Below are positions 11,301-64,000 of a stretch of 64,000 nucleotides of DNA, one piece after another. Position 1 is the stretch's first letter. The number at the start of each line of letters is the position of its first letter. Under the pieces are notes generated by a model that was given only the letters and a program-made list of their open reading frames with translations, ran no database searches and was not told the origin of the DNA. Origin of the DNA: Neelides folsomi (lineage: Eukaryota > Arthropoda > Collembola > Neelipleona > Neelidae); the NCBI GenBank assembly GCA_034687125.1, contig JAQGBZ010000140.1, forward strand, positions 1 through 64,000. The letters are read 5' to 3'. Made by a program: the position numbers and the translations under genes.

Positions 11301-14300
11301 GCCTCAACACGTGAGGAGCAGCTGTGAGAGGAGAAGGCTAATATTATATAAAAGCATACCTCCACTCCAACAAGGCGGAGTTAGGTTCGGAGTGAGTGCG
11401 GAAGAAGACCTCGAGGCAGAGGACTGACATGACGGTGCTCGGATAATATTCGGAGAAACAAAGTGTCTTCCAACAAACGAGTCAAGGACCTGCCAAGAAG
11501 AGCAAAGATTTTATATAATGAATTCGAGCTACATTCCCCTTCATCATTGTCATCAGGTCTCGAAAGTCAGTGATTCTCCCTTCCCGGGATGTGGGTAAGG
11601 TGAAGAGTGGGAGCCAAGAATAAGAAGATTAAATTCAAACTTGCGGAAAATGCAGTCTCCGTGGGTCTTCTTCACCTCTGCGATTCCGAATGGGGCAAGC
11701 AAGCCAGGAGCTGGACTCATTCCTCTCAATTGCCCGCCTACCCAAGCCCCGCCACTCTTATCTGGTCCTCCTGGACCGCCTTTCCCCTTCACTGCCGCTG
11801 CGGCCCATCATCATCATCATCCATCTCAATTACTCTTGGCCGCAGCGGCTGCAGCGTACAACCAGCAATGTGCTGCTGCGACTCTGCTCCACCAACAACA
11901 CACCCATTCACAGATACCAAATGGAATAAATGGGAATTACCATATTAAGGTGAAAAGTTCCACTTTTCTTTTTTACCTAATCCAAAATAATTATGTATTT
12001 ACGCTACCAATTAAAAGATAATTATAGGGCATTGAAAAGTATGAATAGAATTTGGGTCTTTTATATAGTTTTTCTAAAAAATGATATTGGAATTGGGTTC
12101 TACATGGCACTTGAGTATTGGTAGGAGTGGGTTTAGTGTTTACTTGAGCTTGTTGCTCTTTCTATCGAGTTTTCCGCTTCCTCAGACGTCTTCTTCAAAT
12201 ATGGTCGAAATATTATAGAAGCTCTGCTCGTGCAGAATTGAACCCTGATTTTCCACCGACGTGTTTCGGAGAATGTTATACCTTCAATTTACATTCGCTT
12301 TCATTTAACTATGCAGACAAGTGGTGGGGTGTGTTTGATGTGAAATGGTGACGTGGAGCGGATGATGAGAGACGTGATCGTATTGGTATTCAAACTTCGA
12401 ATCTATTAGTATTACCTATTTATTTCGACGAAGGGAGAATATGAAATGCTCTAGCTGTGAGTTGTATACTACTGATTATGTACATATGTATAGTAGACTT
12501 GCTTTGGTTTATTTCATATTAAATTCAGGTCTTAAGATATATTTATTAAATGTCTTTTATGGTTCACTTCGGGTACGGAGAAAAGGAAGAGGAAATGGGG
12601 GACGCGAACAAGGCATTGAATATTGAATAAGAGCACTGTTTTGTACTCTAAATTACAATCTTAGGGCTGAAGGGCTTGAGTAAGGTGAAATGGATTGGAA
12701 TTTACATTTTGAGCCCGAAAATGGATTGCGACGAGATTTATTTGAAAGAAGGAGAATGGAATGAGAGTAAAGAAATGAAAATGATTAGATTCCCGGAGTG
12801 AAACCCCCATTTGAGTCCCTGGATTGAGATTCAGATAGGAGATAAAGAAATGATTTTATGATGCTCTGCTGCGGCTCACCAATCCTTTTGTCGCAATGTA
12901 ATGCCCAGGCGAAATAAGAAATGAATCCTTTTTTTAACTTTTATACAAATAATAATGACGTATGGAATGGCCTTTTATGCATAAAGCTCCTATAATATGT
13001 AGGTAATATTTTATACAAACACGCGGAGGTAATATTTAACTACTTATTAATTAAAATTTTTCCATGATAGATACGACTGGGTAAAATGTTATCGATGAGG
13101 TTGTCATTGTCAAATTCTTAATCTTGGTTCAAATAGGGGAAAATTCTATAAATTCCATTTGTTATCCTTGCACTTGGAATGTTCTTGGGAATCAAGATCA
13201 AAGGTCAAAATATTGAGTGATTGTTTGCTTTGTTTATTAAAACCATTTCCTCTTACCCTCACATTCTTCTTTAGTAAAGTACTTTGCATTCCAAAAATGG
13301 TCGATATTCTTAATATTGAATTTCATTTAAACTTCAATCTTGATTTTCTCTCATGGAATTCACGAAGAAAGACCTATGAAGACGTTTGGTCAGATTGAAT
13401 AAGAATGTATGAGCATTTCCAATAGCTAGAGATGCCAAACCTTTTTTTTCAATTTACTGTTCTTGGAAGGGAGAAAGCACTTGAAGGGATGATTTAATAT
13501 TGGGCTACTGATAAAACAGGATTTTCTCTTTTCTCATTACCATTACTCTCACGTAAAACTTGTCCATTATGTAATTACGAGATGTTGAGATTGATATTCC
13601 TATACTAAACGTATATTAAGTTATTATAATTATAGTTGTTTACAGATATTACTTAAAGTTAGAGTATAACATTTGATATTTAGCATTTCAGAGTATGGTA
13701 TATGTATTGTATGCAGTATGGTATTACATGATATTTGGACGTAAAGCCTTATTATTCTGCAGTAAAAGTGGTTCTCAGGTTCCCTTTATATTTAATTTTT
13801 TCCAAGCAATGAAAGAGAGAAAGGAGCATGACGTGAGAGGTTGAACCGCAAGTAATTTGTACGCGTAATACTACGCAGTAATGAAGGTTTTTTTCCTCAA
13901 AAGAGAGATATTTGGCGCAGGTACGATCTCATACTTACATAGCTGTTGAAGGAATGTAAGACCATTTTCATAGATTCCTTCGGACACTTACAAGCTCGAG
14001 TGGACGTTTCGGTCGAGCGAGACTTTGGTGTTGGGGAAATAGGAGGAGGAGTGGACGTGGGATTTATTTGCGCGAGCCTCAGGAGCTTAAAACTTTTCCT
14101 TCCCATTCGATGATAATGTCAGTTTTGCAAAGATGTACTCAAAATTACTCACGTACTTTATTTCTTTCCCTTTTCTTGGGAAAGTTGAGTATAAAGAATT
14201 TGATCAGTATTTTTTTCAATGGTGTTAGACATGATATGATCAAAGATCCATTCAAGTTTACAATTTTTATTCAATGTTTATTTACGCATATAAAATAATA

Positions 14301-44300: not shown

Positions 44301-47300
44301 CGAGGGGCTAGCATTGCATATTGAAACTTTCTTCACTTCCTAGCCTAATACTACTTACATTTAGCGAGTTATGGAACTTGTGGAATTTTCTGGATTCAAA
44401 GTAATTTGGGTTTGATTAATCTTCTTTGTTGTACAAATTTGAGCAAAATGCGGGATAACTATTACATTCTCATTATTTGGATGAGAAACAAAGTGAAAGT
44501 TATTTGTTCGTGAAATTCAATTTCCCAACAATGGGGAATTGAGTTTTAAGTTTTGTGGAAAGTTTTCCTAATTGTATTTTGCAATTTCATCCATACAACA
44601 GATTGTGTAATGTCAATTTAAGGTTTTACTACCAATTAAATTTTGAGAAGGGGGTAATTTCCATTAGGAATAAATGTAAATGGGTTAATAAAACCATTGT
44701 AAATCCATTGTTTGGTATGCATTTCCTTTTAAGTTTGATATGAGAGTCAAAGGATGATGAGATTAAAGTGGATAGTTATATAATGCCCGAGTGAAGGGAC
44801 CATTTTCCTCGTCGTTCAATGTTTTGTGTAAAGGCACGTTCTGGTAGTCTTTAATGTTTTGGGAGAACGGAGCTTAGACAGATGGAAAGTGCGAGAGAGT
44901 GAGCTGAACACTAAGACCCATTAGAGGAAAGTGGGAATTTAATTGACTCCTAAATACAATGAGAGGAGATACAGACGTATGTCTGTTAATTAAGTAATGT
45001 GCTTTGTGTGTCTCTTTGAGGGGTTAAAAGAGGATTTGATTCAAGCGGGTTTAGTAAAATAGAGATTCTTTAAGATGTTCGATTTCATCTCAACTGTGTC
45101 TGTGTCAGCCCGCAGATTTGTGGATTGTGGCGAAAGGAAGTTTGCCCTCTGTGTGGTGGAAAGGAGTATATGACCTCTTTTTCTCTCCTTTTTAGGACTG
45201 AGGAAAGTTTACCCGTACTACTTCACATTCACAACATTCACGAAAGGGCGATGGGTCGGGGAGAAGATTCTTGATGTTTTCGCCCGGGAGTTTCGGGCTC
45301 ATCCTGTTGAAGAATACGTAAGTGCTTCCTCTTTATAACTTGTTTTTTTCTCTCTCCCTAGGTTTATATTTTGACGTAAAGAGGAAATTCATGAAGATTT
45401 ATTAATTCTTCGTTTTTCTCAAGATGGGTCGCAGTAGGGAGTTAAAGCTAAATATGTATTTATTTAATGTCTATCTCACTTTCGATGAAAAGCTATATAC
45501 TCATTTAAAACTTTTAACTTATTGTATAGTATGCTTAAGATATATTAAATTAAAACAAAGGCCTTAATTAACGAGATAATTTATCATGACTCGCTACTAA
45601 TTTAAATACTTATACAATTTAACATCACTAAATAAATACATACTTAGACTTATTGTAGCACACAATAACATACATATACAGACCTATCAGTATGTATACC
45701 ATATATCAGTATATTTAAATTTTTCATGTGTGACTTACAATTAGTTTGAGCTTTCATTTTAAGAATATGATAGAAACGATAGATTATTAATTATTAATGA
45801 GATGACTGACATAGGGTCATAATAAATAATAAATGTAAATCTAATTTATTTAGTTTTTAAATTGAATATAATAGTTTAAATTGAGTTTAATAATAATAAA
45901 TAATGAAATAAGCATAATTTTTACAATTGACTTTGGATATGGATTGAATACAGTCAAGTGATATCAAAATAATATTCGAAATTAGGTATACGTATAATAC
46001 ATACCTAGATAAAAATATAATATTGCTCTTATTGCTTAATGTAAGTTGAGTAATAGACAAAATCACGTTCTTATATTTATTTTGTTGACATGCAATGTCA
46101 TCAATAATGGTGAGAGTTCGAGACAACAGTCAAACCTCGAGTTCCTATAATTCACAAAATAACAGCTTTTCTATTTGATAAACCCCCAGATATAAATCTT
46201 CCCTATGTATCCTTTCAACTCAATTCCATCCACACGAACGGGCAGTTGAGTCCAATTTTGTTTACAAAGAGTTATAAAAAAGCTGTCACAAAGGGTTTTG
46301 TCAGATTTCGAGAGTTATTCAAGAGCCTCTTAAGTCCTTCATATATTTCATGACTCAAAACGATTGAAAATGTTTTCTCCAGCTCATTTATCTCAAACTT
46401 AACGCCTTTATTCACTTCAGCCGTGAGAAACTGGAATCTGTTGTATTGTATTTAAAATTTATGAGAGCCTTGTCCTTTAGAGTCTCCAAAAGAAAATTTG
46501 ATAGGGCGTAAATAAATGATCCCAACATTTTAATTATGCGTCATTCGGATAGAAAATGTTTAATATATTTTGTTGAAAATATTAAAATCTAATTTCAGAA
46601 ATTATGTTCACAGTGTTAATTTAATCATAGTGGTTATACGAAGTAACTCATTACTCATTTTGGAAATGATGATTGCGTTTCATTCTTAATTAATTTGTAA
46701 TATGCAGCACCAACAAACCTAATGATGAAATTCAATAAACTATAGGGAGAGCATATAATTTTGATAAAATTTGTTTTTGCGAGAATGATTCAGTGAAGTG
46801 TATGGAGCTCGAATTAGAACATTAGGAATGAGAAATTACTGTGAATGTGAATGAAGGGCGGCATTGTACAGACAGTGTCTTGGACGAGGAAATTAAGGAA
46901 ATTGTAACATTAACATGAAAATTGAATTTGTGATAAAGTTAGTAAAATACAGATTCAAATTAACGGCTGGGAAGCGATAGTCTGTGCATCGGTATAGTAA
47001 GTTGGAGTAAAATGGAGAAATGAAGGCGAAGTTTGAGATAAATGGAGTCTGTTTCTAATTTCCGAATCGGAGGCGGGTGGGCGGGTCGATTTTGTAACAA
47101 AGTTTCAAATCGGCCCTTGTTGTATCCAACTTTTGGTGGCGACGGAAGAGGTTGTGTTGGCTCGAACTGTTAAGGGATTGGCAGCAGTCGGAAGGATGCT
47201 TGTCGTCAGATGAGATTCATATGGTTTCAGTCAGTCTTATAAATTATATAAATTTACATTATGTATAAGAATAGGATATAGCCTACAGGTCTGAATTGGC

Positions 47301-50300
47301 GATTTGAGAACAATGCGACCCTTCTGTTATTAATTAATATCAGTTTTATTCGACCTAATTCACAATCCTCAATGCTCCTTTATATAAAAGTAGAATGAAT
47401 TTGACTTTTTGAGTTTTTTGTGAAATAATATTTATTTATAATAATGGCAATGAGGATTGAATGTATGAAGAAGAAATAGAGTTTTTGTTGCAAACTCTCC
47501 TTCGACATTTAATCAAAAGTGACCATGAATTAATACACAAAGCGAACAAAAGTGTAATTCTTAGCGAGTAGTCGATGTCGTAGGGATTATTTAATATAAT
47601 TGATATTGTCAATGTTATGTATTCTCTGTACTTCTCACCAACGTACAGGATTTGACGTAGAGAAACATTTAATTAATGCTGTGAAATGATAAAAAAAACT
47701 TGTGATTCTTCTGATCTTGAATACTGCTTATATTGATGCAGGAACGGTGTATCAAGAGCGGTACACTGACGGTCAACTACACCAAAGTCGATACGGACTA
47801 TCGACTCAAGCATAATGACTTGCTAGCTAACATTGTCCATAGGTAAATCACGTCTTACTCTTTTTTTATCTTCTCTGACTATCAATGAGTACAAGACATA
47901 GTCAACGTCTTGTCAAAAAATAATGCACTTGCCCTCTCATGACTCTATCCCTTATTGACTCTTATTCAAATTATAATTAAAGTAACCCATTAATTATTAA
48001 ATTAAATTTATTAGATTTTATATCTTCAATACATTTGGTATACTGGACATTAAATGACATCTACAGTACAGTATTTTTTGATGATTTTAATTTGTTTTTT
48101 TTTCTCTATTTAAATTGCATCAAGTATTTTACCCCAATTTTACAACCTGTAATTTGATGTATTTTTCCCTTTTAAAGCCGTCTTTGTGTGTGTTTGCCTT
48201 TTTCAAATACCAGCTTATTTTTAAATTGTTTTTTTGTTTTCTATTAAATATTTATTTGAGTTTAAAAAGAATTTTGAAAAGTCTGGAAGCTGGATGAGAT
48301 CCAAGCATATTTTTCATTAATATTCCATTTTTTTCCATTTTCCACTTAAAGTAGCGTATTTGATCTTTAGGGTATCCGTACTATGTGGTACCTTTTTTAT
48401 TTATCATTCCTTCTTTACATTGAGAGTTGGTTCAAAGCTGCTATAAAACAAAGGAGCTCCGAGGAAATTTGTACTCATCTCAAGTGACTCAATTGTAGGC
48501 ACGAAGTACCCGTGACCTCTGACCCGATTGAGGTCGTTCACATGGACGAAGACCTCGTTGTGGTTAATAAACCTGCATCAATACCTGTAAGTTAATTCTC
48601 ATTACTTCTTCTCTTACCCTTTACTTTTCATGTACTGTATCAGATGATATCGCCTAAACAAATATTGTTCTCTTTCTCTTCTCACAAATCGCTTTTTCTT
48701 CGTAATTTCCGCTTTAAACCTTTTTTACCGACCCATTGTGTGAACGCTCTCGACAGAGCCGCGTATCCTTCTTGTATGTATTAATAATGAAAAAGTGTGT
48801 TAAGTATCAAATCATCTTACTGTGACTCCTTTTGTCTTTCCCCCCTTTCAACTCAATTGTAGTGTGTGTGGAGTGCATGATTGGAATTGAGATGGAAAAG
48901 ACATTCCTTCGCAGAAACCTCTCAGCAACGACCCATTGTGTGTAATCTCATTCTCTTCTGGGGGTTGATCGAGTGCGGGGCTCTCGAAAAGGGATACCGA
49001 TTTTCCTTTTACTGTACACTCGATGCCCGATGACCCTAAGAGTCCCCATAAATATCCTGAAGTGGAGACATGGATTCAGGAACTTGGTAAATGTGGAGTG
49101 TGAAGAAATGCACTTTAACAAACCAATTGGTCCATTTACCAACTTGGCTTATTTTTCAAAGATGAGTCGTAGCAGTTGCAATTTAAGGAATTAATTAATA
49201 TTTGGGGAATTAATTATTTATCTGCATATGGTATAACATTTATTTATTATGTAATATGTGAACATAATGTACAGTATATTTACAGATTCTTAACTACCTA
49301 ATAAATTAAGATTTCATAGAGTCGAAAGTTTTTAAAAATTTGTAAACGAATTGGATTTCATTAAGACCTACTTTGGAGTAGGAAATTGAAACATCAGTAA
49401 ATAGGAAACTGTTTTTGCCAATTCTGCGTTTGGTGTCGGAATAAAATTGTGTGTTCACTTCTTTGCCTCTTCATCTGAATTGATGTGACTGATGATGAGT
49501 TGTGAGGTTACTAATAAGAGTCTTTTATTTGACAATGCCCCTTTGGATAATGAATTTTAAGAGTCGAAATCCTTAAGATTTTTAAATAAATAACAATGAC
49601 GGATTAATTTGACAGCTACTTTTTTGATTGCTCAGCCTCAAATAGTTTCTCTGCGATTTTATTCTTTTACCAAAAATGTTAAAGTCTATTCTTTGTAATT
49701 TTCGAATGAGCTGCGAGCTTTAGGAAAAATTTTACTTTTCTTTTTATGAAAAGTTTAAATGGGATTATAATTGGATTTCTATTTTCCTAGCATAGGGTAC
49801 AATAGGAAGTAACTTAAACTTCTATCTCCACTTAATTTAATAATTCAGAAGTGACATTGAAGATGTTCTGAAGTTAATTTTTAGAAAAAGCATCATAGAT
49901 TGTAAGATGTTTTTTTTATCCTAGTAATAAAATTTTTTCAATATAACTTACGTAATACTATGTACCTACCATATTTATATAGGAAAAACGTCAAAAGTTT
50001 TGAAACAGGATGAAAATGATATAGGAAAACTAGGCGTTTACAAGATTAGGTTTTTATAGGAAAAACTTGGCAGCCAGTAAAAACAACTTTTTCTTTTACT
50101 CTTTGAGTCCTTGAATTAAAATTTTGAAAATGAAAAGTGGCAAGTTGGATATGACTAGAAAGGCTTTCTAAGATCTTTTTGTGTGATCGGTGATATATTA
50201 GTGTGAGTAATGGATTGGATTCTTCGATATTCTTCAGAGAATTCAACCCAGGTTTCATATCACGTAGGTTTGGCTCAAATGAGTTCAACTTTGCTGTCTC

Positions 50301-53300
50301 CGTGTTTTTTCACCTCCCTGAGTCTTAAAATTGGGAGAATCTTTTAGATTGGAAATTTTGAGTTTTACGCACGAAAAAATTTGAAGGCTCAGCACACTCC
50401 AGAGAAATATGATTCAATTTTCAATTCCATCAGAAAGAAAGTGAGAATGCTTGTAGGGCTCAAAAGTGAATTTTGACAAAATATTTGTTTCGAACGCGTT
50501 TATTCATTTACTCCTCTACGTTTACAGTGTGGGTGTATGTAATATTATTCGTAATAAAACAACCAAGTGATGTGAAAGTTTGAGTAGTTTTCTAAGAAAG
50601 GGTAAGATTGATTTTAAATTGACTAGGTAAATATTTACTTAATGTTTAATGTATTAAACTTGTATAAAAAGCGATATTAATGCGTAGAAGAATAATTGAA
50701 AAGTGCGGTGGTTGATGATATGGAGTTCTTTATTATTAAACACAGACATGAAACGCCAGTGTTGGCGAGGCCGATTCAAATCATTCACATAGATGAAGAC
50801 TTGATCGTATTGGACAAGCCCTGTTCCCTTCCGGTATATTATATTCACTTTTCAGGTTGATTTCCCCTTGGACCTTAATGCATCTCCATTTTCTCATCCT
50901 GGGTTTTGTTAAAGTGAGAGAGAGAAATTTCTGCGATGTTTACACTCTCGGAGGAACCGACTCCTCTGCTTTTTTTTGTACCAACGATAATGGAATTTTC
51001 CCCCCAATCCCATTAACTTTATGCTTTTTTTCTACTCAAAAGTAACCAGCATTGCAAAGACAATCCTCTAGCTTTCTCTTTAATTAAGAACACATAATTT
51101 GTAAAAGACTCGCCATTCCAATTTTTTAATGGCTAAATGACCATTTTTCCTTCATAAATGTTATTGGCTATTAATTTGATCATGAGCGAGGGAACTATGG
51201 TCATATAATGCTTTGGATGTTTTGTCCTAAATAAACAGCGGAATGCAGTTATTGTTGATTGAAATTCTTAGAATACTTTTATGACACTAATAACTTCCAA
51301 TGGATTCTTACACAAAGTTTTTAAAGCTTCAAAAGTTCTACAGTAAAAGGCGGAATGGTGTGCTGGCGTAGGAGATAACCGTACTTTACTAAAATATACA
51401 CTTGGGCATTGTAACTTTTTAATTAGAGAAGTGCGTTCAATTGAGCCGTAAAACTATTCTGAATACTAAAATTACAAACCAAGACTCACTTTTATTACTA
51501 ACGTTTCTCATCTACGCTATAAAAATTATCATAAATTGGTATTAGTATTATTCCAATATGGATAGCTAGTGATTATGGATATCGATGAACATTCAGACAA
51601 CTTGTCTCGTAAAATTGTTATTTTTTTAGGCCGAGACAAGAGTAATAATTATTTTATGCTTATATTAACAATGAGTTTCTTAATTATTTTTCACTTGACA
51701 AGTTCATCGCGTTTAATTGATGGCTTTACTATTTATAGCTTGCCTTTCAATGTAAGGGAATAAGTTGGTGTGAGCAATTCATTAATTATTCGAAGACTTT
51801 CTGCTCTTCTATGATATACGCTGTATGATATATGTATACAGTGTATGATATATTTATGACTATGATTATTGTATGAATTGAATCAATATTAAAAGTTATT
51901 AGTTATTCTTTATAGTGACATAATGGTATCTGATACGACTTTTATTTGTTTTTAATAAATTGCTTATAAATAAATTAGCAAATTTCTTGAAAATCGATTA
52001 AAATTGTATCATTATCTATTATTGGGTCGTATATGTAATTCCTTTTGGAATTCCCAGAGTAAATAAAGGTTAAAAGGTTTGTTTTGTTACGACTTACGAT
52101 ATAATACTGGAATGTCAATTATGTCAATCAAAAATATTATTCGTAGAGAATTATTCAATTAGGAAACTGTCAATACAAGATTGCTTTATTAATTTTCTCA
52201 ATCAATCAATTTCAGTTATTTTATATTGAATATTTCAATTTTGGTACATTCATATCTGAATCATATCCACTGATAGATATTAAATATGTTTTTGAGAGCA
52301 ATTTGCAAAATGTAATATTTTCAATAAAATGTACAGTATTTCATTTGGTTAGATGGATAAAAGTGATAGCTATTAATGGAAGTTCATTAAATTTTTTCAA
52401 TTTTTGTAAATAATCAAAAGGATCCACAAAGGAATTTTCTAAGACTAGGCAAAACGAGGAATAAGCGGCTTTGTCTTCTTCATCAACGTCATATTTATCT
52501 TTATTAATAAAATATTCCTCCAATGAATAATACCTGGGTGGGATTAGAGAGATTCCTTGGAGTGAGAGAGAAGATTGGGAAAATGGGAGATTGAAGTCAA
52601 GTCGGATGGTCTCATGTGGCTTCATATATCCTCGCATTAGATCTGAAGAGAAAGCTCGAGAGTTCATATTTGCACACCTTCCTCAGACATTTAGAAATCA
52701 TTCATGGAGTCTCTGACGTCAAACATACACGAGCTCCTTCAACCTTACCTGCATTAACAAAAGAAGGGCAATTACTTACGGCAGACAATTTTCACCTAAT
52801 GATCCATCTGGAGACCCCCAAAAACCTCATTTTCATACAATATTATCCTTAGTTCATCAATTTTAATAATTCCGACCAAATCTGGTCAATTTAATGGAGA
52901 TAGCAAAGTTTTAAATGAACTTTTGTGTCCGTGTTATCAAAATGCCATATTCTCTTAATTGCTGTACAAATTAAGTTTGGGCTCTTAATTGTAACTTCTA
53001 CTATACAATTTGAGATATTTAACTAATTACAATATACCTCCATATCAGTTCCAATATTAGTAGTTTACTATTCAAATTGTGGACAAGGAAATACAATAAG
53101 ATTTTGAAGATGGTATTTGAGCTTAATATTGCAAAGAGATAAAATGTCATTGAATGGAGGTAATATCCCGTCGAGAGCATCTGCTCATCCATGTGTGTGG
53201 CTTTCCTTTTATTGTCAGTGCTCACTTGGCCATTGTGAGCTAAAGAGGAGTGTGGGAGAGAAGACAATATAATTGAACTGAGTAAACGAGATATTAAGGA

Positions 53301-56300
53301 CTGCGCAATGAGACTGGATGTTGGGGAGATCTTTTTGGGTATATCCTATCTATTTATACACCGATACGTTCCGCGAGTCTACGGCCTGTTAAAAAGATGG
53401 AGATTTATATTGAATGGCGGGGGAATGTTTGGGAGTCTTTTTGCGTTGATTGTCTTCTTGCGTGTGTCGCACTATGGGTCCTTTTGTCGTTGTCAGCTTG
53501 ACTCCTTTCTCTCTACTTTCCACTTCTCTAGAGACGCGGAACCTCGACAATTCCATCCATTCAATCCATCTACATGAATCCTCTCTTCATGACCTTTATG
53601 GCTCCACTGACAATGAATGGTAAAACGTGTGAAGTAGATATGCATGTTCGGCTGACGATGGGAATTACAATAAAATATTGTGCTACTGGAAGATCTTTTA
53701 GATTCCAATTGCCTATAAAATACGTCCTGGTTCTGTCAGTTTATTCAGAGCTTTTCAGATTTATTTTATTGGAATTAATTAAACCTTTCATTAATCAAAA
53801 CTTCAGATATACTCAAAAGGCATTTTAAATTTATTTTCCATTTATTGTTAAATTATTATAATGTATCTTTATTTAAGCAATTCACGAATATTATTTTAAG
53901 TTATTTACGAACAACCTTTTTGAATTAATCTTCATCATGCTTTGTTGAATGTACAAATGGTGTATTACTTGTAATTGAAATGATTAGTGCTTCAACGAAA
54001 GCCTATTAATGTAAATATCCGTTGTAAAGATAGGATAAGTTGAACATTGTCGTAACTATTGAGTTAATTCACGAGCTAAATTACCATGATGGTATATACA
54101 AGAGCCGTAACTGTCAGGAGTGCGTGGTCCAATTTAATTTAAATGTAGGATATCCTTATAAATTCCCCCTCGTTCAATGAGTCTGAAGATTCTTGTGCTC
54201 CTGCAGTGGCCTCAACGAAGATTCCTCCAATGTGTTCCATCTGGAGTGTTTTGATCCACGTTGATAATTCTTGTTTAAATTGAGTTGATGAAGAGGAGGT
54301 TCTTGGTGAGTGGGAAAGGCTTATGGAGCCAAAATCCAACATGGACCTCTCACTCAATCTCCAGAGATGTGATGGAAGATTGAAGATGTGAAGTGCCAAC
54401 ATTATGAACCTCTAAGTACATGGATATATTAAATAAGTACAAGTATTATGGTTATATTCTATGAAAGTGAATCCTGGGAGGGAATGAGAATCACATTGGC
54501 GGCGGTGTGTGTTTGCGTGTGTGGGATATCCCTTTTGGCTCCATTCAGACCGATAATGTCTCTTTGGTAGTGGTGGAGTCAAATGAAGGATAAGTATTAG
54601 AATTGCCATAATATATTTCCACTGTAAGCATAATTCGACTTGTGATTTGAATGGAGGATTTCTCTTAGCTCCCGACATGTTTGGTGGCCTGATATTTAAT
54701 GAGGTTGAGAGAGTTTGGAGTCGCGGCTCGGTGAGTGAAGCGCCTTGAGATCCACGACTCAAACCCCGCCACGAATGATGGATGAAGCTCGTAATAAATT
54801 CAGTCGAAAGACTCGTCGGTTCTCCCTCTTTTAAACCATGGGTTCAACATGGGGATGCAAAATGGGTTGGAATACTATGAATTCCTTGAGATTGGGAAAG
54901 AGAAGGCTTCTTATATTACTCTCTTAGATGATACTATCATAATGTCTTGAGCATGTTTCTTGACTTTTCTCCTCTCTCCTTTGCTCCTTTTCCAAAGCAC
55001 TTTATTCCGGCTGAGGGAGATAAGGTGAAGCATCTGGATTTGACTTTTCCCTTTTTCTTGACGTATGTTAAAGTGCGAGTTTGCCCTCCTGCTTAATGCT
55101 CCTCGTAATTCGCCCGAGCAGAATGGAACTGAATTTTGAATGAGTTCATTACCGACGAAGGAGGAGGAGTGTGGTTAATACATGGTTCTCTTTAATGAAT
55201 GCTGTAGGTTCACCCGTGCGGTCGCTACCGCCATAATACTGTCGTATTCATCCTCGCTAAAGAACATCAGTTGAAGAATCTAAGAACGATCCATCGGCTC
55301 GACCGCCTCACGTCAGGACTCCTCCTGTTTGGTAGAAGTCCGAAGAAGGCAAGAGAAATGGAACAGCAGATTCGAAACCGACTAGTTTCCAAACAATACG
55401 TCTGCCGAGTTGAAGGAGAATTTCCTGAGTGAGTATAATTCCTATGCAATTTCATTACCTTTATTATTCCTTTTATATTCTCCTTCTACCTAAATAATAT
55501 GGTAGTCAGTCGACATCAAAAATTACTTCCTTGTGCGAGTAATTGACGTAATTTGGCTATTTCTCCTCATAGAAGTTATATCAATATTTTGACTATTTAT
55601 ATTTTGATAGTTAAAAACATTAGTTCGTGGGTTATAAGAAGATATTACTAAATAACTTATACAATTATTTAATATTACATTATGGTAGATATTGTAGTAG
55701 TGTAAAGGTAGGGTTTTAATTAGTAGTCAAAGGAAGGATATTTACACGGTCAAAATTGCACACACGTCTCTTTTGAGCGATGTTTCATCACTCAATACTT
55801 CAAAGTTTCATTCGAGACGTAATTGGAAGAGATGGGAAGAGGAATGTCGAGTGAAGGAAATGGAGAAAGTTAATTTTCTCCATCGTGTTTCCGCTAAATT
55901 GAACTTCTTCAATTTGAATATCAAACACTTTCGTATTCGAAGTGGCGAAGACGAGGTTCTCATTTGAATATAATGGAACTTCAAGACTTGGATTTCCTCA
56001 ACAAGGCCCAGGGAGCTATAAAGGATTTCCAACCCTTGATTGTGTAAATGATTAAGATTGTTTGTTTGCTAAAGAGTTCTCCTCTTTTATGTTACAGTGA
56101 AGAGATCGAGTGTTGTGAGCCGATTGAAGTGGTCAGCTACAAGATCGGAGTTTGCAAGGTCTCTAAAGATGGAAAGGACTGTCGGACAGTTTTCACCAAG
56201 TTGAGCTTCAATGGGAAGACGAGCGTTGTGCTCGCCAAACCTCGAACCGGGCGAATGCATCAAATCCGTGTTCATCTCCAGTATCTCGGTAAGTGTCTTT

Positions 56301-58792
56301 TCATTACTCCTTGACAAGAACAAGGAGATGAGAGCCAAATAGATTCACCGCATTTCATCTTCTCCTAAAAGACAGCAGATTGTTCTCTTAAGACACCGCA
56401 GATTGATGAAAGAAAATCCATATGGTTCATATCATACTATTCTAACACTATACCATACACTTGATCATACTACCTAACCATAAGCGATAAGTAAAGGCTT
56501 ATGTAATATAACTATTATAAAATATGTTCTTTTGTTCATCGCCTTTTACCTATCAGTTTTCTTACCTTTACTCACACCATTGACTAATTTTCTGCAGGAT
56601 ATAATTTGATAGCACTCAGGGTCTGAAAGAAGAGTAAAAGTGACGTCAAAGGGAGATGTATGTTATGTGGATGGAAGACTTTGGGAAAATCTTCATCAGT
56701 TCTTTTGTAAAGACCCCCGACCGCCTTTCCTTTCATTCTTACTTTATATAAACATTTCCTCACGATGTGTATTTACGACATACATGGTCTTTTCACCTTT
56801 TCCTGGATTTTCCTAGCTTTATACATTTTGCTCAAATGGTGAGCATCGAGCAGGTTCGTATTATGTTCTCTAATAACAAGATGAGGCTGATCCCTCAGGC
56901 TCTATGATTAAGTTCCAATCACTCAGGCCAAGCTCGAGGTGAAGTAAAATAGCTTTGTAAGAGCCTTTCTCATTCAATTCAAATCAGATACTATCCCTAA
57001 GCTCATGAATTCTCCTTTTTTTCTGCAAGGCGTTTAAAAACCAATTTCAATTTTGAGTAAAGGTAAGGATTTCCTTACTTGGCTTTAATACCATTAAATT
57101 AAATAGAAAATATCTCATTCACTCATCCTTTATTCTGTTTTTAGTCCGGGCCTCGGGTCAAACCACTCAATTGTCAGATAGTGTATTAAGTTAAATATGA
57201 AAAAAATAATATTTATGTTTGAATAAAAAATATTTTGATAAGGGCAGAAAATGTATATTTTACATATAATGTTAGTATATTTAACATTTAACATTTTATA
57301 TTCAATTTCTATATTTATTTTTATATTTATAAATAGGCAAGTTATTTGAACCATGTCGAATCCAAACATTCGCCCTCTCAGGTCTCAAAATATCTAATAC
57401 CCAGCCCAGATGGTGTAGGAGATTTGAATCGTTATAAACCAACCTGCTCCATCGTCTTGAGTTCAGTCCCTGGATCGCCTGATATTTAATCGAGGCTTTC
57501 CAAGCTGAAGAGTTTTATTTGGAAATTAATTGGTATTGGAACGAGAGCCAAAAGAGAAAAAGGATGACGAGTGGAGCAACAGTTCTGAGGAGCAAAGACT
57601 GTAGCTTAATAGGAATTACAATCTCTCTTGACGAGAAAGTGTGGAAGAGAAAATAAGCTCCTGTAATTATATTTTCTTTTGAAATGAGAGATAGGAACCT
57701 TTGGAAACAACCTTCTTTTTTCTTTTCTCCCTAGGATTAAATTTTACCTCTTATCTCCTTTACCCATTTTATTCCTCTCCATCACCTCTGTCTATGTAGC
57801 ACGCAAAACAGAATAAAATGTATTATGTATAAGAAAAATATATGGCATATAATATACTTCACAATATCTTTATTAAATATTTTACAATAAAATATAATTC
57901 GTTTTACAAATAGCTGGAAGAAAAATAAATATTCAAAAACAATTTAAAATCTAATAAAAGAATTTAATAAATTTTTTCTATAGGTTATCCGATCGTGAAT
58001 GATCCTCTCTACAATCACTCGGTATTTGGTCCAGAAAAGGGTAAAGGAGGGATTATTGGGAAATCGGACGAACAGTTGATTTCTGAACTCATTTCCATCC
58101 ACAATGCCGAGAATTGGCTGGGAATTGAAGGAGAAGATGTCGGGGGTCCTTCAGGAGACATTTTCGGTCCAACGCTTCCTCCGACCATCAGCGCCAATGA
58201 TCCTCCCTCAGTTTCCGGACAATCAAGTGGGAGCAGTGATTTGACACGTGATAAGAGTCCCGAACTCGGCTCGGAAGACTTGACTCTTTCTCCTTCCAAT
58301 GGCCTTCCGAAGGAACTCTTAGACAGTCGGGTTGACTCCCCAGAAGATCCGCCCGCCCACTCTGGGAAGGTGACTGTTGGGACTCAAACGGGTGACGGAG
58401 AGGCGTTCCAAGACTCTGCAAATCACTCCAGTCCAAATGGGAGTGGAGAGAACAACAACCAAAATAAAGGGGATCCACTCGGCTTTCGAACCGACCTCAT
58501 GACTTACGATCCTCACTGTTACGAATGCAAGGTACGGTACAGGGATCCGAAGCCAAAGGACTTGGTCATGTACCTTCATGCCCTCCGTTACAATGTAAGC
58601 ATTTCTTGTATGGTAAAAAGGGAGAGAGTCACAATATTGGATTTAATGGTGGAGTGTTTGCCTGGAAGACCCTTGGTTCAATATTTACTTATTTTAACGC
58701 ATTTTCTCTTCCAGGGACCTGACTGGGGCTTTGAGACGAAGATGCCCGCATGGGCCTCTCAAGATTGGCTTGAACTGGAGGAGCTCGGATAA
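5271..58792 (+). CDS. RPUSD2: RPUSD2, RluA-family RNA pseudouridine synthase (very large gene, mutually exclusive exons)
   Basis: The proposed leader-start coding join is 5271-5323, 5493-5643, 23044-23133, 34833-34920, 45196-45317, 47742-47842, then 48499-48586 or 50746-50833, 55208-55428, 56098-56288, 57984-58594, 58715-58792. It gives 597 residues (human about 545) and every junction keeps frame. From about residue 111 it follows human RPUSD2: [20 protein letters not shown], an S4-like segment (about 150-202), [22 protein letters not shown], the catalytic HRLDRLTSG (Asp263), [26 protein letters not shown] (354-369), and a C-terminal CxxC (547/550) before [17 protein letters not shown] and MPAWA. 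The enzyme isomerises uridine to pseudouridine in RNA. Exons from 23044 on are secure; the two upstream exons are linked only by phase and leader character. Confidence 0.9.
5493..5643 (+). CDS. RPUSD2: Candidate second exon of RPUSD2
   Basis: Pyrimidine-rich acceptor (GTTTCTTCTAG) and perfect donor (CAA then GTAAGT). One base plus 50 codons is open and ends in phase 0, as the exon at 23044 requires. Other frames contain stops. The peptide contains LKMMKLEQ, giving internal methionines that could start a leaderless form, and a polar end ([16 protein letters not shown]). An alternative acceptor (AAATAG at 5471-5476) would break the phase with 5323. The exon itself is well supported; its gene membership is less so. 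Confidence 0.55.
5644..11344. other. Large intron / upstream region with GC-rich islands
   Basis: No recognised gene. Notable contents are a polypurine/polypyrimidine patch (6290-6550); a candidate exon or TATA region (9617-9722, including GAGTATAAATAC); and a GC-rich, ORF-dense stretch (about 9980-11340) leading to the promoter at 11345. Open frames in the island occur on both strands and show no family signature, so I read it as promoter-associated sequence rather than genes. Confidence 0.35.
11345..11354 (+). promoter_or_regulatory. TATA box for the exon at 11650
   Basis: TATATAAAAG is a near-ideal TATA box, set in a GC-richer island that is unusual for this window. It lies about 300 nt before the ATG at 11650, predicting a start of transcription near 11375-11380 and a leader of roughly 270 nt. 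I see no strong initiator match, so the exact start is uncertain. Confidence 0.55.
11429..11598 (+). promoter_or_regulatory. Two upstream ORFs in the 5' leader
   Basis: Within the predicted leader, ATG at 11429 opens a 5-codon frame ending TAA at 11446, and ATG at 11518 opens a 26-codon frame ending TAA at 11598. Both end before the main ATG at 11650. If this leader is transcribed unspliced, they would reduce or regulate initiation at 11650. A good donor-like GTAAGG overlaps the second stop (from 11595), so the leader could also be spliced. Confidence 0.35.
11650..11949 (+). CDS. TATA-driven first exon with Pro/His/Ala-rich protein; candidate alternative start of RPUSD2
   Basis: Start context is GAAAATGC. 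Exactly 100 codons run to a donor (AAG then GTGAAA) in phase 0, the phase needed by the exon at 23044; joining gives a 629-residue RPUSD2 form. The peptide is low complexity: a Pro-rich segment ([17 protein letters not shown]), AAAAHHHHH (from CAT repeats), [13 protein letters not shown] and LLHQQHTH. Such homopolymer runs are common in arthropod transcription factors and RNA-binding regulators and are not typical of pseudouridine synthases. So there are two readings: an alternative N-terminus for RPUSD2, or the first exon of an unseen regulatory gene whose next exon lies elsewhere. I favour the exon being real, and am undecided on its partner. Confidence 0.55.
11950..23043 (+). other. Long intron upstream of the 23044 exon
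   Basis: About 11 kb of AT-rich sequence. It contains the Tc1/mariner-like MITE at 19312-19875 and, just before the next exon, a GC-richer, both-strand-open patch (22627-23043). Scattered open frames of 60-99 codons show no domain, conserved motif or paired splice sites that I can defend. No tRNA-like internal promoter was seen. Confidence 0.45.
19312..19875. mobile_element. Non-autonomous Tc1/mariner-like transposon, 564 bp
   Basis: The ends are inverted repeats. The left starts CAGGGCGTTCACGTTAAG and the right, reverse-complemented, starts CAGGGCATTCACGTTAAG. The first 34 bases pair with a single mismatch, so the copy is fairly young. TA flanks both sides (19310-19311 and 19876-19877), the target duplication of the Tc1/mariner superfamily. 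The interior includes a C-rich stretch (about 19516-19580) and an 81-codon open frame with no transposase resemblance. It is therefore a deletion derivative or MITE that depends on another element for movement. It sits inside the long RPUSD2 intron and does not touch an exon. Confidence 0.85.
23044..23133 (+). CDS. RPUSD2: RPUSD2 exon: basic linker before the conserved core
   Basis: Acceptor TTATTTAG, donor AAG then GTGAGA, 30 codons, phase 0 at both ends. It encodes a charged linker with a basic patch ([15 protein letters not shown]) and ends REIKK. Human RPUSD2 has a comparable Lys/Arg-rich stretch (nuclear-signal-like) just before its conserved region. Because the exon begins in phase 0, any upstream exon ending in phase 0 can supply the N-terminus. 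Confidence 0.8.
23134..34832 (+). other. Long RPUSD2 intron (11.7 kb)
   Basis: AT-rich with ATGTATGT/TACATAC-type simple-sequence patches (for example 25670-25740 and 26100-26220) and two GC-richer patches where several frames are open on both strands (27670-28325 and 33690-34130). No domain or splice-bounded exon could be recognised in them. Confidence 0.4.
34833..34920 (+). CDS. RPUSD2: RPUSD2 exon: start of the conserved region
   Basis: Acceptor TTTAAATAG, donor G then GTGAGT, 29 codons plus one base. It encodes [19 protein letters not shown], which matches the vertebrate pattern of a basic stretch followed by F.DE...ETSYYFE. The phase fits both neighbours and the junction recreates the [10 protein letters not shown] motif. 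Confidence 0.9.
34921..45195 (+). other. Long RPUSD2 intron (10.3 kb)
   Basis: AT-rich. Simple-sequence patches of the TATGTA type occur (for example 39990-40070), and ATTATGCATGGA is doubled at 36434-36460. A GC-richer patch at 43400-44290 is open in several frames on both strands but without recognisable product. I see no nested gene. Confidence 0.4.
45196..45317 (+). CDS. RPUSD2: RPUSD2 exon: entry to the S4-like region
   Basis: Acceptor TCCTTTTTAG, donor TAC then GTAAGT. It encodes [20 protein letters not shown] and then [20 protein letters not shown], residues 128-168. The blocks RKVxPYYF, KGRWVG and L.DVF..EFRA.P are hallmark RPUSD2 sequence and precede the S4-like RNA-binding fold. 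Confidence 0.95.
45318..47741 (+). other. RPUSD2 intron (2.4 kb)
   Basis: AT-rich. At 46129 a short CAGTCAAACCTCGAG resembles a Tigger terminal sequence, but no matching opposite end was found. Nothing else is supported. Confidence 0.35.
47742..47842 (+). CDS. RPUSD2: RPUSD2 exon: S4-like RNA-binding segment
   Basis: Acceptor TATTGATGCAG, donor AG then GTAAAT. It encodes [20 protein letters not shown] and then [13 protein letters not shown], residues 169-201, the part of the S4-like fold with the 'I..G.L.VN' and 'L..ND.L' pattern. It ends with two bases (AG) that become Arg202 with the first base of either alternative exon (AGG or AGA), keeping HRHE in both isoforms. Confidence 0.95.
48499..48586 (+). 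CDS. RPUSD2: RPUSD2 mutually exclusive exon A (motif I, 'KPASIP' version)
   Basis: Bounded by acceptor TCAATTGTAG and a perfect donor GTAAGT; 88 nt, one base plus 29 codons. It encodes [10 protein letters not shown] then [19 protein letters not shown], residues 203-231, and joins in phase 0 to VHPCGR at 55208. This is RluA motif I, the KP-containing strand and turn that packs beside the catalytic aspartate and RNA. The PVT..PI start and the KP.SIP end resemble vertebrate RPUSD2, so A is the more conventional version. Confidence 0.95.
48587..50745 (+). other. Intron separating the mutually exclusive exons (2.16 kb)
   Basis: It contains the 14-nt repeat at 48729 and 48929, and a strong unused-looking acceptor at 48829-48862 whose last 12 bases (ACTCAATTGTAG) repeat those at exon A's own acceptor (48487-48498). 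No third homologous exon was found here. A minus-strand open frame at 50046-50288 has no recognised product. Confidence 0.45.
48729..48942 (+). repeat. 14-nt exact direct repeat in the intron between exons A and B
   Basis: CGACCCATTGTGTG occurs at 48729-48742 and again at 48929-48942, exactly 200 nt apart. Both copies lie downstream of exon A and upstream of exon B. An exact 14-mer repeated this close is unlikely by chance alone and could be a regulatory element or a local duplication. Confidence 0.4.
50746..50833 (+). CDS. RPUSD2: RPUSD2 mutually exclusive exon B (motif I, 'KPCSLP' version)
   Basis: Also 88 nt with the same phase as exon A. It encodes [10 protein letters not shown] then [19 protein letters not shown], aligned without gaps to exon A with 16 of 29 identical (HE, PV, PI, H, DEDL, V, KP, S, P). 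Splice signals are weaker: acceptor ATTAAACACAG has a poor pyrimidine tract and the donor is GTATAT. Nine of the 16 shared residues use different codons, so protein-level constraint, not recent copying, explains the similarity. It should replace exon A in some transcripts. Confidence 0.85.
50834..55207 (+). other. RPUSD2 intron after exon B (4.4 kb)
   Basis: It holds the unexplained minus-strand ORF at 52341-52667 (listed separately) and further GC-richer stretches with minus-strand frames at 54139-54402 and 54412-54762 that show no recognised domain. The rest is AT-rich. No third copy of the A/B exon was seen. Confidence 0.4.
52341..52667 (-). CDS. Unrecognised 108-codon ORF nested in an RPUSD2 intron
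   Basis: The frame runs from ATG (complement of 52665-52667) to TGA (complement of 52341-52343) in a local composition richer than its surroundings. The peptide looks globular rather than random: aromatic and acidic stretches ([20 protein letters not shown], then [18 protein letters not shown]) and a hydrophobic end. AATAAA on the minus strand lies at the complement of about 52186-52191, some 150 nt past the stop. The plus strand is also partly open here (52616-52852). I do not recognise the family. It may be a nested gene, a terminal exon, a decayed gene copy or chance. Confidence 0.28.
   Translation of the reverse strand: MNSRAFSSDLMRGYMKPHETIRLDFNLPFSQSSLSLQGISLIPPRYYSLEEYFINKDKYDVDEEDKAAYSSFCLVLENSFVDPFDYLQKLKKFNELPLIAITFIHLTK
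55208..55428 (+). CDS. RPUSD2: RPUSD2 exon: catalytic HRLD motif
   Basis: Acceptor GCTGTAG, donor GA then GTGAGT; 73 codons plus two bases. It encodes [20 protein letters not shown], then [16 protein letters not shown], and ends [19 protein letters not shown] carries the catalytic aspartate (Asp263 in the leader-start model) of the RluA family. This exon is constant and follows either alternative exon. Confidence 0.97.
55429..56097 (+). other. RPUSD2 intron (669 nt)
   Basis: Short AT-rich intron. Overlapping open frames on both strands near 55773-56032 have no recognisable product. Confidence 0.5.
56098..56288 (+). CDS. RPUSD2: RPUSD2 exon: RTGRxHQIR motif
   Basis: Acceptor TTTATGTTACAG, donor G then GTAAGT. 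It encodes [20 protein letters not shown], then a strand-rich core, and ends [17 protein letters not shown]. The RTGR.HQIR.HL block is the last conserved RluA-family motif, which lines the active site with basic and polar residues. The match to vertebrate RPUSD2 (EPI..VSYK.GVC.V) is clear. Confidence 0.97.
56289..57983 (+). other. RPUSD2 intron (1.7 kb)
   Basis: AT-rich, with no coding signal or repeat that I can support. Confidence 0.5.
57984..58594 (+). CDS. RPUSD2: RPUSD2 exon: end of catalytic domain, disordered insert and CxxC
   Basis: Acceptor TTTTCTATAG, donor AAT then GTAAGC; 611 nt. It opens [20 protein letters not shown], the end of the catalytic fold, then a region like the vertebrate GRGGYI..(T/S)(N/D)E.L segment. 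A long Ser/Gly/Pro/Asp-rich, probably disordered insert follows (about residues 400-540). The exon ends [20 protein letters not shown] and then MYLHALRYN, containing the RPUSD2-specific C-terminal CxxC (Cys547, Cys550). Vertebrates have an equivalent acidic insert and CxxC in the same place. Confidence 0.96.
58595..58714 (+). other. Last RPUSD2 intron: 120 nt, in frame and without a stop
   Basis: Donor GTAAGC, acceptor TTTCTCTTCCAG. The length is a multiple of three and the frame is open through all 40 codons, so a retained intron would insert 40 residues between LHALRYN and GPDWGF rather than truncate the protein. The intron is called because vertebrate proteins run directly from HALRY(K) to GP. 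Confidence 0.85.
58715..58792 (+). CDS. RPUSD2: RPUSD2 last coding exon
   Basis: Twenty-five codons plus [23 protein letters not shown] then LEELG. GP..F....MPAWA.DDW is the conserved C-terminal signature of vertebrate RPUSD2, here with SQDW. It confirms the splice from 58594. Confidence 0.95.
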   Translation, partial: GPDWGFETKMPAWASQDWLELEELG

Positions 58793-61556: not shown

Positions 61557-62959
61557 CTATTCAAATAAAAGAATGTGATCAATGGGACGAAGATGAATTA
61601 CTTGAGGTGGAACCATATAATCTTAACTCCATTTACTCCATGAAAGTGGAAGAGCTTCGCTGTTAAACGAAATACAAAGAATTTCCATACTCATCTAATC
61701 ACTCAACCTCAATGGAATTCGAGATTCCACCGACCCAAAACAAGATAGAGATTAATCGGAGAATTTAATTTTAAAAGCGCAGGCGAAATCTCTACAAAGT
61801 GCCTTACCTAAATACATAAAAGACATAAAAGAAGGTTGAAGAATTTAACCAATGTGATTAAATATCTATTTTAGTATACAAGCCTTATAGAAAAAACTCG
61901 TTGACCTCAGTTGAACTGAGGTCAATTTCAAATATGTACGAGTATAATAATAATAATATTTTACAATATCTTACAAGATAGAACAATTGGTTCACAATTA
62001 CTATGCATTACAATATATTTATGTAGTAGTAAAACATCAATGAAATAAATCAATTTCTTTTCCCTAATTTGCAAAAAAATTGAAAATTGGAAAATTCAAA
62101 GCATTATAAATTCAATGCACTATTAAATAAATTGGTTCCAGGTTTAAGTTAGACGTTAAAGAAAGAAGGATTCAAAATTTAATACGCAGTGCCAATAGCT
62201 GACACATAAAGTTTTGAAATACATACATAAATATATACATACCATTTCGATTTTTATTTTGTTGCATCCGTAGCAAAGGGCCAGAATTCCCTCGGAGTCG
62301 ATGTCCAGGGCACTCTGGGAAATAAGAAAGGAAGTCAAGGAAGAGCGGAGCGATGGGAATTGGCTCAATAGACCTTTCTCGATGGAGAGAAAAGGATTCG
62401 AAGTTGAGAGTAAATGGGGCTATTGAATAATTCATGACTTTCCCATTCTCCTCCTCCTCCTTCGTCCTCCTCCTCCTCTAAAGAGTGTCACTCACTCATG
62501 ACGAATTCAAATAAATAGTTGAGCCAATTTGCAAACTGTCTCAAACAGAGTGTTCTCCAGCGTCCACTCTCAAACCAATTAAGAAACGAAACACTCGACT
62601 GCCTTCCCAAACCCAACAACACTTTTCACTCCTCAGCTCCATTAAGAACCTCAATCGGGAGGAGAGGTCATGGTATTTGTTTTAATATTATAAGTAAATG
62701 GGACGAGTTGCCCTGTCCCTCCTTCCCACTTTTCCGCTCGTGGGGAGAATGGGAATGAGGGGAAATGAGGACTAACCTTGCAAAAAACACATGATGGTTT
62801 GGGAGTAATGGAATTCTCTTCCCTTTCACCACTTTCCAGGTTCTCCACGAGTTTTCCTCCCATACGAGTGAGCGTTGAAGCGGTTGAGGGATATCCCCTT
62901 GTGATTAAATCCCCGATCAGCTCCTCGCACTGTTTCTGAATTGTTTCAATTTTCTCTTT
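61500..62959 (-). CDS. CTU2: CTU2 (cytoplasmic tRNA 2-thiolation protein 2), 3' part
   Basis: Minus-strand exons, in coding order: 62959-62777 (61 codons), 62314-62243 (24 codons) and 61556-61500 (18 codons plus TAA), all phase 0. The first encodes KEKIETIQKQCEELIGDLIT then RGYPSTASTLTRMGGKLVEN, matching vertebrate CTU2 (FPSTVSTVYRTSEKLV), and ends SCVFCK. The second continues SALDIDSEGILALCYGCNKI. Together they form the paired CxxC...CxxC cluster near the CTU2 C-terminus. CTU2 (Ncs2) works with CTU1 in the cytosol to thiolate wobble U34 of tRNA-Lys, -Glu and -Gln using sulfur from URM1. The N-terminal ATP-binding-fold part lies right of the window. The gene is convergent with RPUSD2. Confidence 0.85.
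61557..62242 (-). other. CTU2: CTU2 intron (686 nt) with a 25-bp palindrome
   Basis: AT-rich intron. It contains a perfect palindrome at 61901-61925: 12-bp arms TTGACCTCAGTT around one base. Another short CTU2 exon could hide here, but I found none. Confidence 0.45.
61901..61925. repeat. Perfect 12-1-12 inverted repeat with everted AGGTCA half-sites
   Basis: Arms TTGACCTCAGTT and AACTGAGGTCAA around a single G. Read as protein sites, TGACCT and AGGTCA are everted nuclear-receptor half-sites with 11 bases between them. Read as RNA, it would be a tight stem with an impractically small loop, so a cruciform or protein site is more natural. Confidence 0.5.
62243..62314 (-). CDS. CTU2: CTU2 exon with the second CxxC
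   Basis: On the minus strand, acceptor CTTATTTCCCAG, then SALDIDSEGILALCYGCNKI and KIEM, then donor GTATGT. LCY.C..(I/T)IK is the CTU2 C-terminal zinc-type motif. Only 14 residues separate CVFC from CYGC, whereas vertebrates have tens of residues there, so this protein lacks that insert. Confidence 0.85.
62315..62776 (-). other. CTU2: CTU2 intron with a CTC/TCC microsatellite
   Basis: 462-nt intron. It includes a (CTC)n-type simple repeat at 62447-62479. Open frames across it are extensions of the exon frames and composition effects. Confidence 0.5.
62447..62479. repeat. CTC/TCC trinucleotide microsatellite
   Basis: An almost pure run of CTC/TCC units interrupted once by TTCGT, inside a CTU2 intron. 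Confidence 0.75.
62777..62959 (-). CDS. CTU2: CTU2 exon with the YPSTxSTLxRxxxKLVE block and first CxxC
   Basis: On the minus strand, acceptor TTTCTTTCTTCCAG, 61 codons, then donor GTTAGT. It carries the amphipathic helix and PST.ST...R...KLV block that identifies CTU2, an acidic Glu-rich spacer (LESGEREENS), and CVFCK at the end. Both ends are phase 0, so the upstream exon, not seen in this window, must end in phase 0. Confidence 0.88.
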
Positions 62960-64000
62960 CTGGAAGAAAGAAAAAAGATTCTTTTAACTCCTCTATTCAT
63001 AACAACCGCTGAGAGTTTCCACTTCAACCCATTTCTTCTAATGGAACAGCCTTAATAAAATGAAAGATAAAACTATTTATACCATTCTAACACTTTTTTT
63101 ATTCTCTAGTGATAAATTCACAAAATTTTCAATTGCACAGTCAATTATTAATCAGCCTTAATTTTTACCAATTCCATAAAATAAAAAATGTATGAATTGG
63201 TTGAATTTTCTCTGTACTGTAAAATGTTTAAATGTTTAAACTTTGAAATACCCAAATAAATAAGAAAATTAACGCTCTGGAAAATTTTAGATCAAATGTT
63301 AAAGGAATTTGTGTGAAAATAAGTTTTGTGAGATTATCAATATTAACTTGACCACAGACTGGTGATTGGCATTTAATTAAAGATATGGGTTGAGCTGTAT
63401 ATAAAATGAAATAAAATATAAATTCCTCCTTCCGAAAGCGAATCCATGCGGAGGAGTTAACGTGCTTTCCCTTTTTATTAATTCATTTTTAACACTCTGC
63501 TCGAGCGATGAAAGAATTCCATTACGGAATGCATAAAATGCATGAGGGACTTCCGCGACAAGAATTTTACACCAGGAAAAAGGCGGATTGGGGAAGTGGA
63601 AACGCGCCATGAGCTTAACGGAATATAAATGTTAAATGAGAGCTGGGCTTTTAAAAATTAATATTTTCAAACGGTGAGGAAACTCGTGGAGCATTCGAAT
63701 GAATGAAATTGGATGAAGAAGGTCTTGGATAATGATTAAAGGACTTGACTATGATTACTATTAGGAAAAGTCTAAAGGGTGTCTTCACCTCATGCATAAT
63801 AAGTTGGGAGGGGTCGAAGGTCTCTCCCACAATTCCCCTCTTATTTTCTTATTCGAGTGAAATGGAATTGAATGTTGTCTGTGTTGTGTACTCAAAATCG
63901 ACTTCCTCCACTCTCTAAAGAAATGAAATTGAAGGGAAATGGCTTTCAAACCAAAAGCTATTTCCGAATTCTCTTCCCCGTCATATCTCCTTATTCTTAT
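62960..64000 (-). other. CTU2: CTU2 intron running to the right edge
   Basis: AT-rich sequence in which I could not recognise the preceding CTU2 exon. A 77-codon minus-strand frame at 63377-63610 does not resemble CTU2. Confidence 0.4.

Follow-up and report, generated by a model that had tools for sequence, protein, structure and literature searches.

Two kinds of described systems are close to the locus considered here. One is a pair of adjacent RPUSD2-type genes of Drosophila. According to the excerpted text of PMC7718762, RluA-1 is expressed in multidendritic neurons and some others, RluA-2 is ubiquitous, and the loss of either gene leads to hypersensitive nociception; the same excerpts describe the residues of motif I as fully conserved but non-catalytic. 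The other system is the cluster of tandem homologous exons. According to PMC3228551, 65 of 94 such exons of the fly X chromosome potentially belong to internal mutually exclusive clusters, 21 to multiple-promoter clusters, and 8 to multiple poly(A) clusters. The same features are shared by 90 of 16,180 non-exclusive exons (0.56%), and true exclusivity is expected of candidates located around single internal exons. Here we describe a 64,000-nucleotide (nt) stretch of the genome of the collembolan Neelides folsomi (contig JAQGBZ010000140.1, positions 1 to 64,000; below, the window), in which the gene of an RluA-family pseudouridine synthase contains two homologous versions, A and B, of one exon. 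We interpret them as a tandemly duplicated internal exon whose copies are probably used as mutually exclusive alternatives.

Results

Each of the exons A and B is 88 nt long and consists of one base and 29 codons; both are preceded by AG, followed by GT, and have the same phase. The encoded segments coincide at 16 of 29 residues, and at nine of these 16 positions a different codon is used. At the DNA level, 50 of 87 bases are identical (57% identity), with 16, 25, and 9 identities among the 29 first, second, and third codon positions, respectively. Nine of the 13 differing residue pairs have a positive BLOSUM62 score. The most radical differences, T/L and D/R, both fall in the part that links the N-terminal domain to the catalytic one. 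The charge differs as well, with five acidic and two basic residues in B versus six acidic and one basic in A. The original prediction for this window had reported the lengths, the phase, the residue and codon counts, and the flanks at 47842 and 55208, all of which were confirmed by direct reading. It had also placed both exons between the same constant neighbors and considered the duplication to be old, with the protein sequence kept by selection; the former claim is borne out by the reading of the frame and splice sites, and the latter by the sequence comparison given below.

Comparisons within the window single out this pair. Among the 69 open in-phase stretches of the form AG-88 nt-GT on both strands, A and B counted, B reaches a BLOSUM62 score of 105 against A, compared with −2 for the best of the others. 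When all 29-residue windows in six frames are considered, the best unrelated score to A or B is 24. Comparison of the window with itself by tblastx (E ≤ 1e-3, low-complexity filter on) yielded 474 rows. A and B, matched once each way (E 1.9e-12 and 2.3e-8), form the only pair that joins separate places, and the other 472 rows align a stretch with itself or with an overlapping one.

Genome searches were performed in the assembly of the same species (75.1 megabases) and score only the best candidates. The exons E1, E2, C, and D and the start of F were found in one place each, and the A/B segment was found in two. A 35-residue peptide composed of B and the start of C (E limit 10, best two candidates scored) also returned two places, namely B itself and A at E 3.8e-7. 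Three further weak matches (two on contig C54 and one on contig C277; best E 6.6e-4) were assigned to other genes. Thus, A/B is the sole duplicated stretch among the exons searched, and therefore the exon, not the gene, was duplicated. Gene duplication and a tandem partial gene were rejected for the same reason.

A transcript read from E1 with A alone or with B alone is open for 469 residues up to the same stop codon. If both exons are included, a stop appears at codon 105 (TGA, the second codon of B); if neither is included, a stop appears at codon 96 (TGA, codon 22 past the His-Arg junction). The splice sites were ranked among the AGs and GTs of the window by a generic weight matrix. The acceptor of B is in the top 7.3% of AGs, compared with 12.4% for A, 8.2% for C, and 9.3% for F; the acceptors of E1, E2, D, and G rank better. 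Both sites are at least as good as those of B in one of 38 open plus-strand 88-nt candidates, and that one is B itself, by construction.

The proportions of synonymous and nonsynonymous differences between A and B are 0.85 (saturated) and 0.30, respectively. In simulations, 37 random base changes were introduced into each of 20,000 copies of A; none of the copies kept 16 residues (the maximum was 15), and 56% gained a stop codon. A second simulation, in which transitions were given more weight, had the same outcome (0 of 20,000). These simulations assume that all changes occurred in one unconstrained copy, and they reject a long-neutral relic, not a recent loss. The introns around A and around B (approximately 0.7–1.2 kilobases on each side, exons excluded) share only matches of 11–21 nt with E 0.29 or worse. 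The family profile TIGR00005 (cut-off 192.7 bits) scores 239.9 bits for the A isoform and 233.7 bits for the B isoform. The latter score decreases to 208.8–220.8 when the 13 differing residues of B are randomized (5 of 5 trials below B), to 184.6–191.8 when B is shuffled (3 of 3 below B), and to 180.6 when the exon is deleted. Given the pattern at codon positions, the excess of synonymous differences, the non-aligning introns, and the fit of B to the profile, B very likely codes for protein and has been maintained by selection. A search for relatives in viral contigs gave 53 stretches that matched the pattern, none of which was confirmed. At least 65 bacterial relatives confirmed in genome contigs were left unused, the search patterns themselves being derived from A and B.

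The host gene is located on the plus strand with the exons in the order E1, E2, A, B, C, D, F, and G (Table 1); coding exons upstream of E1 must exist. The catalytic HRLD motif is in the constant exon C, the next one after the swapped exon, where HRLDRLTSG aligns with the HRLD of RluA and RluC. By its profile and motif matches, the host belongs to the RluA family of pseudouridine synthases; we regard the gene as single-copy. Among the matches in PDB, the chains of RPUSD4 (E 6.4e-12) and RPUSD1 (E 1e-7) rank below the bacterial RluC, RluA, and RluD chains, and RPUSD2 is not among the matches listed for the host protein; the RPUSD2-type label that we give to the gene is our assumption. Residues 10–29 of A/B align with residues 12–31 of RluA, and residues 12–29 align with residues 7–24 of an RluC chain. 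The KP of A/B aligns with the RluA NKPSG. We take the aligned part to comprise the first strand and motif I, including its KP, and E1 to be the start of an S4-like N-terminal part. The preceding part of A/B, which links the S4-like domain to the rest, is unmatched in the RluA and RluC chains.

Two other contigs of the assembly, C277 and C54, have PF00849 matches over the cut-off and appear to carry further RluA-type genes. The C54 frame contains HRLD (HRLDKDTTG), and the C277 frame has NKA where motif I has NKP.

Table 1. Exons of the host gene and the candidate promoter and start upstream of exon B (window coordinates).
Feature	Position	Strand	Remarks
Constant coding exon E1	45196..45317	+	Frame joins E2; splice sites read directly; starts with 2 nt of a split codon
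Constant exon E2	47742..47842	+	Ends CATAG, then gtaaat; 2 nt of a split Arg codon left
Exon A	48499..48586	+	Acceptor gtag, then G; donor CCT, then gtaagt
TATAAAA (50663) and in-frame ATG (50720) upstream of B	50663..50722	+	Candidate alternative promoter and start
Exon B, homolog of A	50746..50833	+	Acceptor cacag, then A; donor CCG, then gtatat
Constant exon C, catalytic HRLD motif	55208..55428	+	
Constant exon D	56098..56288	+	
Constant exon F	57984..58594	+	Assembly search covered its start only
Last coding exon G with stop codon	58715..58792	+	Read from the frame; outside the assembly search

Several other features were observed in the window and in the assembly. On the minus strand, an open frame at 62654–62983 has a sub-threshold match to the Pfam family CTU2, cytoplasmic transfer RNA (tRNA) 2-thiolation protein 2 (23.8 bits versus the cut-off of 27.9, E 6.3e-5), and may represent an exon of another tRNA-modification gene close to the synthase gene. 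On the plus strand, a long open frame at 11599–12018 has runs of His, Ala, and Pro after Met and no Pfam match at E ≤ 0.01; it resembles a first exon from a regulatory gene. Contig C742 (15157 bases) is mitochondrial, and the invertebrate code (code 5) fits its cox1. The order is I-Q-M-nad2-W-C-Y-cox1-L(UUR)-cox2-K-D, where cox1 was identified by family and the other protein genes were named from sequence; this is presumably the ancestral pancrustacean gene order.

Discussion

A and B show four of the features by which clusters of mutually exclusive exons are delimited in PMC3228551, namely similar length, compatible splice sites and reading frame, homology, and an internal position (preceded by E1 and E2 and followed by C to G). 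The original prediction called the two exons mutually exclusive. The homology, the phase, and the shared neighbors stand; the exclusion itself we infer from the reading frame, because inclusion of both exons or of neither leads to a stop, and from how often such exon pairs are exclusive in the fly. Such a clash of reading frames is frequent: according to PMC5740500, 377 (60%) of the human clusters include exons with a length that is not a multiple of three. The further claim, that the swapped block is motif I beside the active site, holds in essence, as the exon carries the KP that aligns with the RluA NKPSG.

If A and B are indeed mutually exclusive, the spliceosome would splice 47842 to one of the two exons and that exon to 55208, and the products with both exons or with neither would be removed by nonsense-mediated decay. 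The two resulting proteins would share the catalytic exon and differ in two places, the link between the S4-like and catalytic domains and the strand that precedes motif I. The likeliest effect of the swap would be a change in RNA docking or in the choice of substrate, not in chemistry, given the location of the T/L and D/R differences in the link and the less acidic character of B.

Several observations weigh against mutual exclusion. In human, again as excerpted from PMC5740500, 6,541 candidates gave 855 high-confidence validated exons (1,399 by a looser test), and the frame-shifting type seen here accounts for only 25 of 615 novel exons predicted within introns. The donor of B (gtatat) is in the top 9.3% of the window GTs, and none of the other six donors scored in the gene is weaker. 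A weaker splice site is common in regulated exons. As for what might enforce the choice, the intron between A and B is 2,159 nt long, the donors look U2-type by eye, and no U12 splice types were seen on reading the sites; therefore, steric or U2/U12 incompatibility is not applicable. Pairing between the introns was matched by 4, 6, and 17 of 30 Markov-resampled pairs (ungapped, three introns), a weak test without relatives.

The main rival to mutually exclusive splicing, which we consider unlikely, is that B is an alternative first exon. Then the promoter would lie in the intron between A and B, transcription would start at approximately 50690, as judged from the position of the TATA element, and translation would start at the ATG at 50720. 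The protein would lack the S4-like N-terminal part and keep the whole catalytic domain. Such a form is plausible because the alignment with E. coli RluA starts only at residue 10 of the 29. What favors this scenario and counts against the exclusion is the TATAAAA at 50663 together with the in-frame ATG and 17 open codons upstream of B. An in-frame ATG with TATAWA 25–90 nt before it occurs at approximately 80 of 3426 window AGs (2.3%), and the ATG alone occurs at 26%; however, both elements were noticed after the fact. In addition, the bases preceding B spell His-Arg in frame, just as the constant exon does, and CAC or CAT precedes AG at 1.9% of AGs. On the other hand, CACAG is an ordinary acceptor sequence, which counts against a first exon, and the acceptor of B is at exactly the homologous base and ranks like those of constitutive exons. 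In the fly, multiple promoters account for 21 of the 94 exons counted in the PMC3228551 excerpts, but A is internal, and the pair thus belongs to the class that the same excerpts expect to be truly mutually exclusive.

Another scenario is that B is a dying relic, that is, an exon that served as a working alternative for most of its history and is now unused in this species. The weak donor of B would agree with that, as would the family profile score of the B isoform, 6.2 bits below that of A. However, B contains no stop or frameshift and has both splice dinucleotides, its 13 changed residues suit the family better than random ones, and it aligns with A while the surrounding introns do not. We therefore regard a relic as distinctly improbable. 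It is very improbable that B is a regulatory (poison) exon, whose inclusion together with A would stop the frame at once and lower the amount of the enzyme. The TGA at the second codon of B in the double product fits this role, but this stop is produced by the His-Glu start of B and adds no independent evidence; moreover, a poison exon need not keep a protein sequence in the other frame, yet B keeps it. Finally, chance resemblance or an assembly artifact, for which we found no support, has next to no probability: chance was rejected by the score of 105 versus 24 for the best unrelated window and by the sole self-tblastx pair, and a false haplotype duplicate was rejected by the base identity of 57% and by the other exons searched, which are not doubled.

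Mutually exclusive use of A and B would have consequences for the enzyme. A stand-alone pseudouridine synthase is generally assumed to act on one target set per gene. Tentatively, and with considerable doubt, we suggest that the exchange of the exon ahead of motif I gives one gene here two stand-alone pseudouridine writers and that splicing thereby switches the RNA targets. If true, a splice switch beside motif I lets one gene serve two RNA target sets. It would also provide a natural pair of enzymes that differ at only 13 positions, and such a pair would inform how RluA-type enzymes choose RNA.

Comparison with Known Systems

The A/B pair probably exemplifies a known splicing phenomenon, in a pseudouridine synthase for which we found no earlier description. 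Among the papers listed in searches of the open-access PMC literature (titles, starts of abstracts, and passages), none was seen to describe such an exon pair, in agreement with the original prediction. Tandem mutually exclusive exons such as those of Dscam (exon 17), Mhc, and 14-3-3 zeta are alike in equal length, phase, flanks, homology, and old duplication, as far as the excerpts of PMC3228551 and PMC6071210 go. The present case differs from them in that the host is an RNA-modifying enzyme, no docking/selector pairing stood out from resampled sequence, and the mutually exclusive use is a prediction from the genomic sequence.

The bacterial enzymes of the E. coli RluA/RluC type (PDB 2i82, 1xpi, and 1v9k) have a catalytic domain that aligns with the later part of A/B, with C and D, and with the start of F. 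The match begins only within A/B, and the exon pair has no counterpart in those chains.

A parallel is found in Drosophila, where, according to the PMC7718762 excerpts, RluA-1 and RluA-2 are two versions of an RPUSD2-type enzyme, as the candidate isoforms are here. In Drosophila the versions are encoded by two adjacent genes, whereas in this assembly one such gene was found, with two versions of one exon. As a speculation by analogy, exon duplication here might be doing what the fly does with RluA-1, mainly in sensory neurons, and the ubiquitous RluA-2. If that is true, duplication of an exon and duplication of a gene can be compared as routes to the same diversity.

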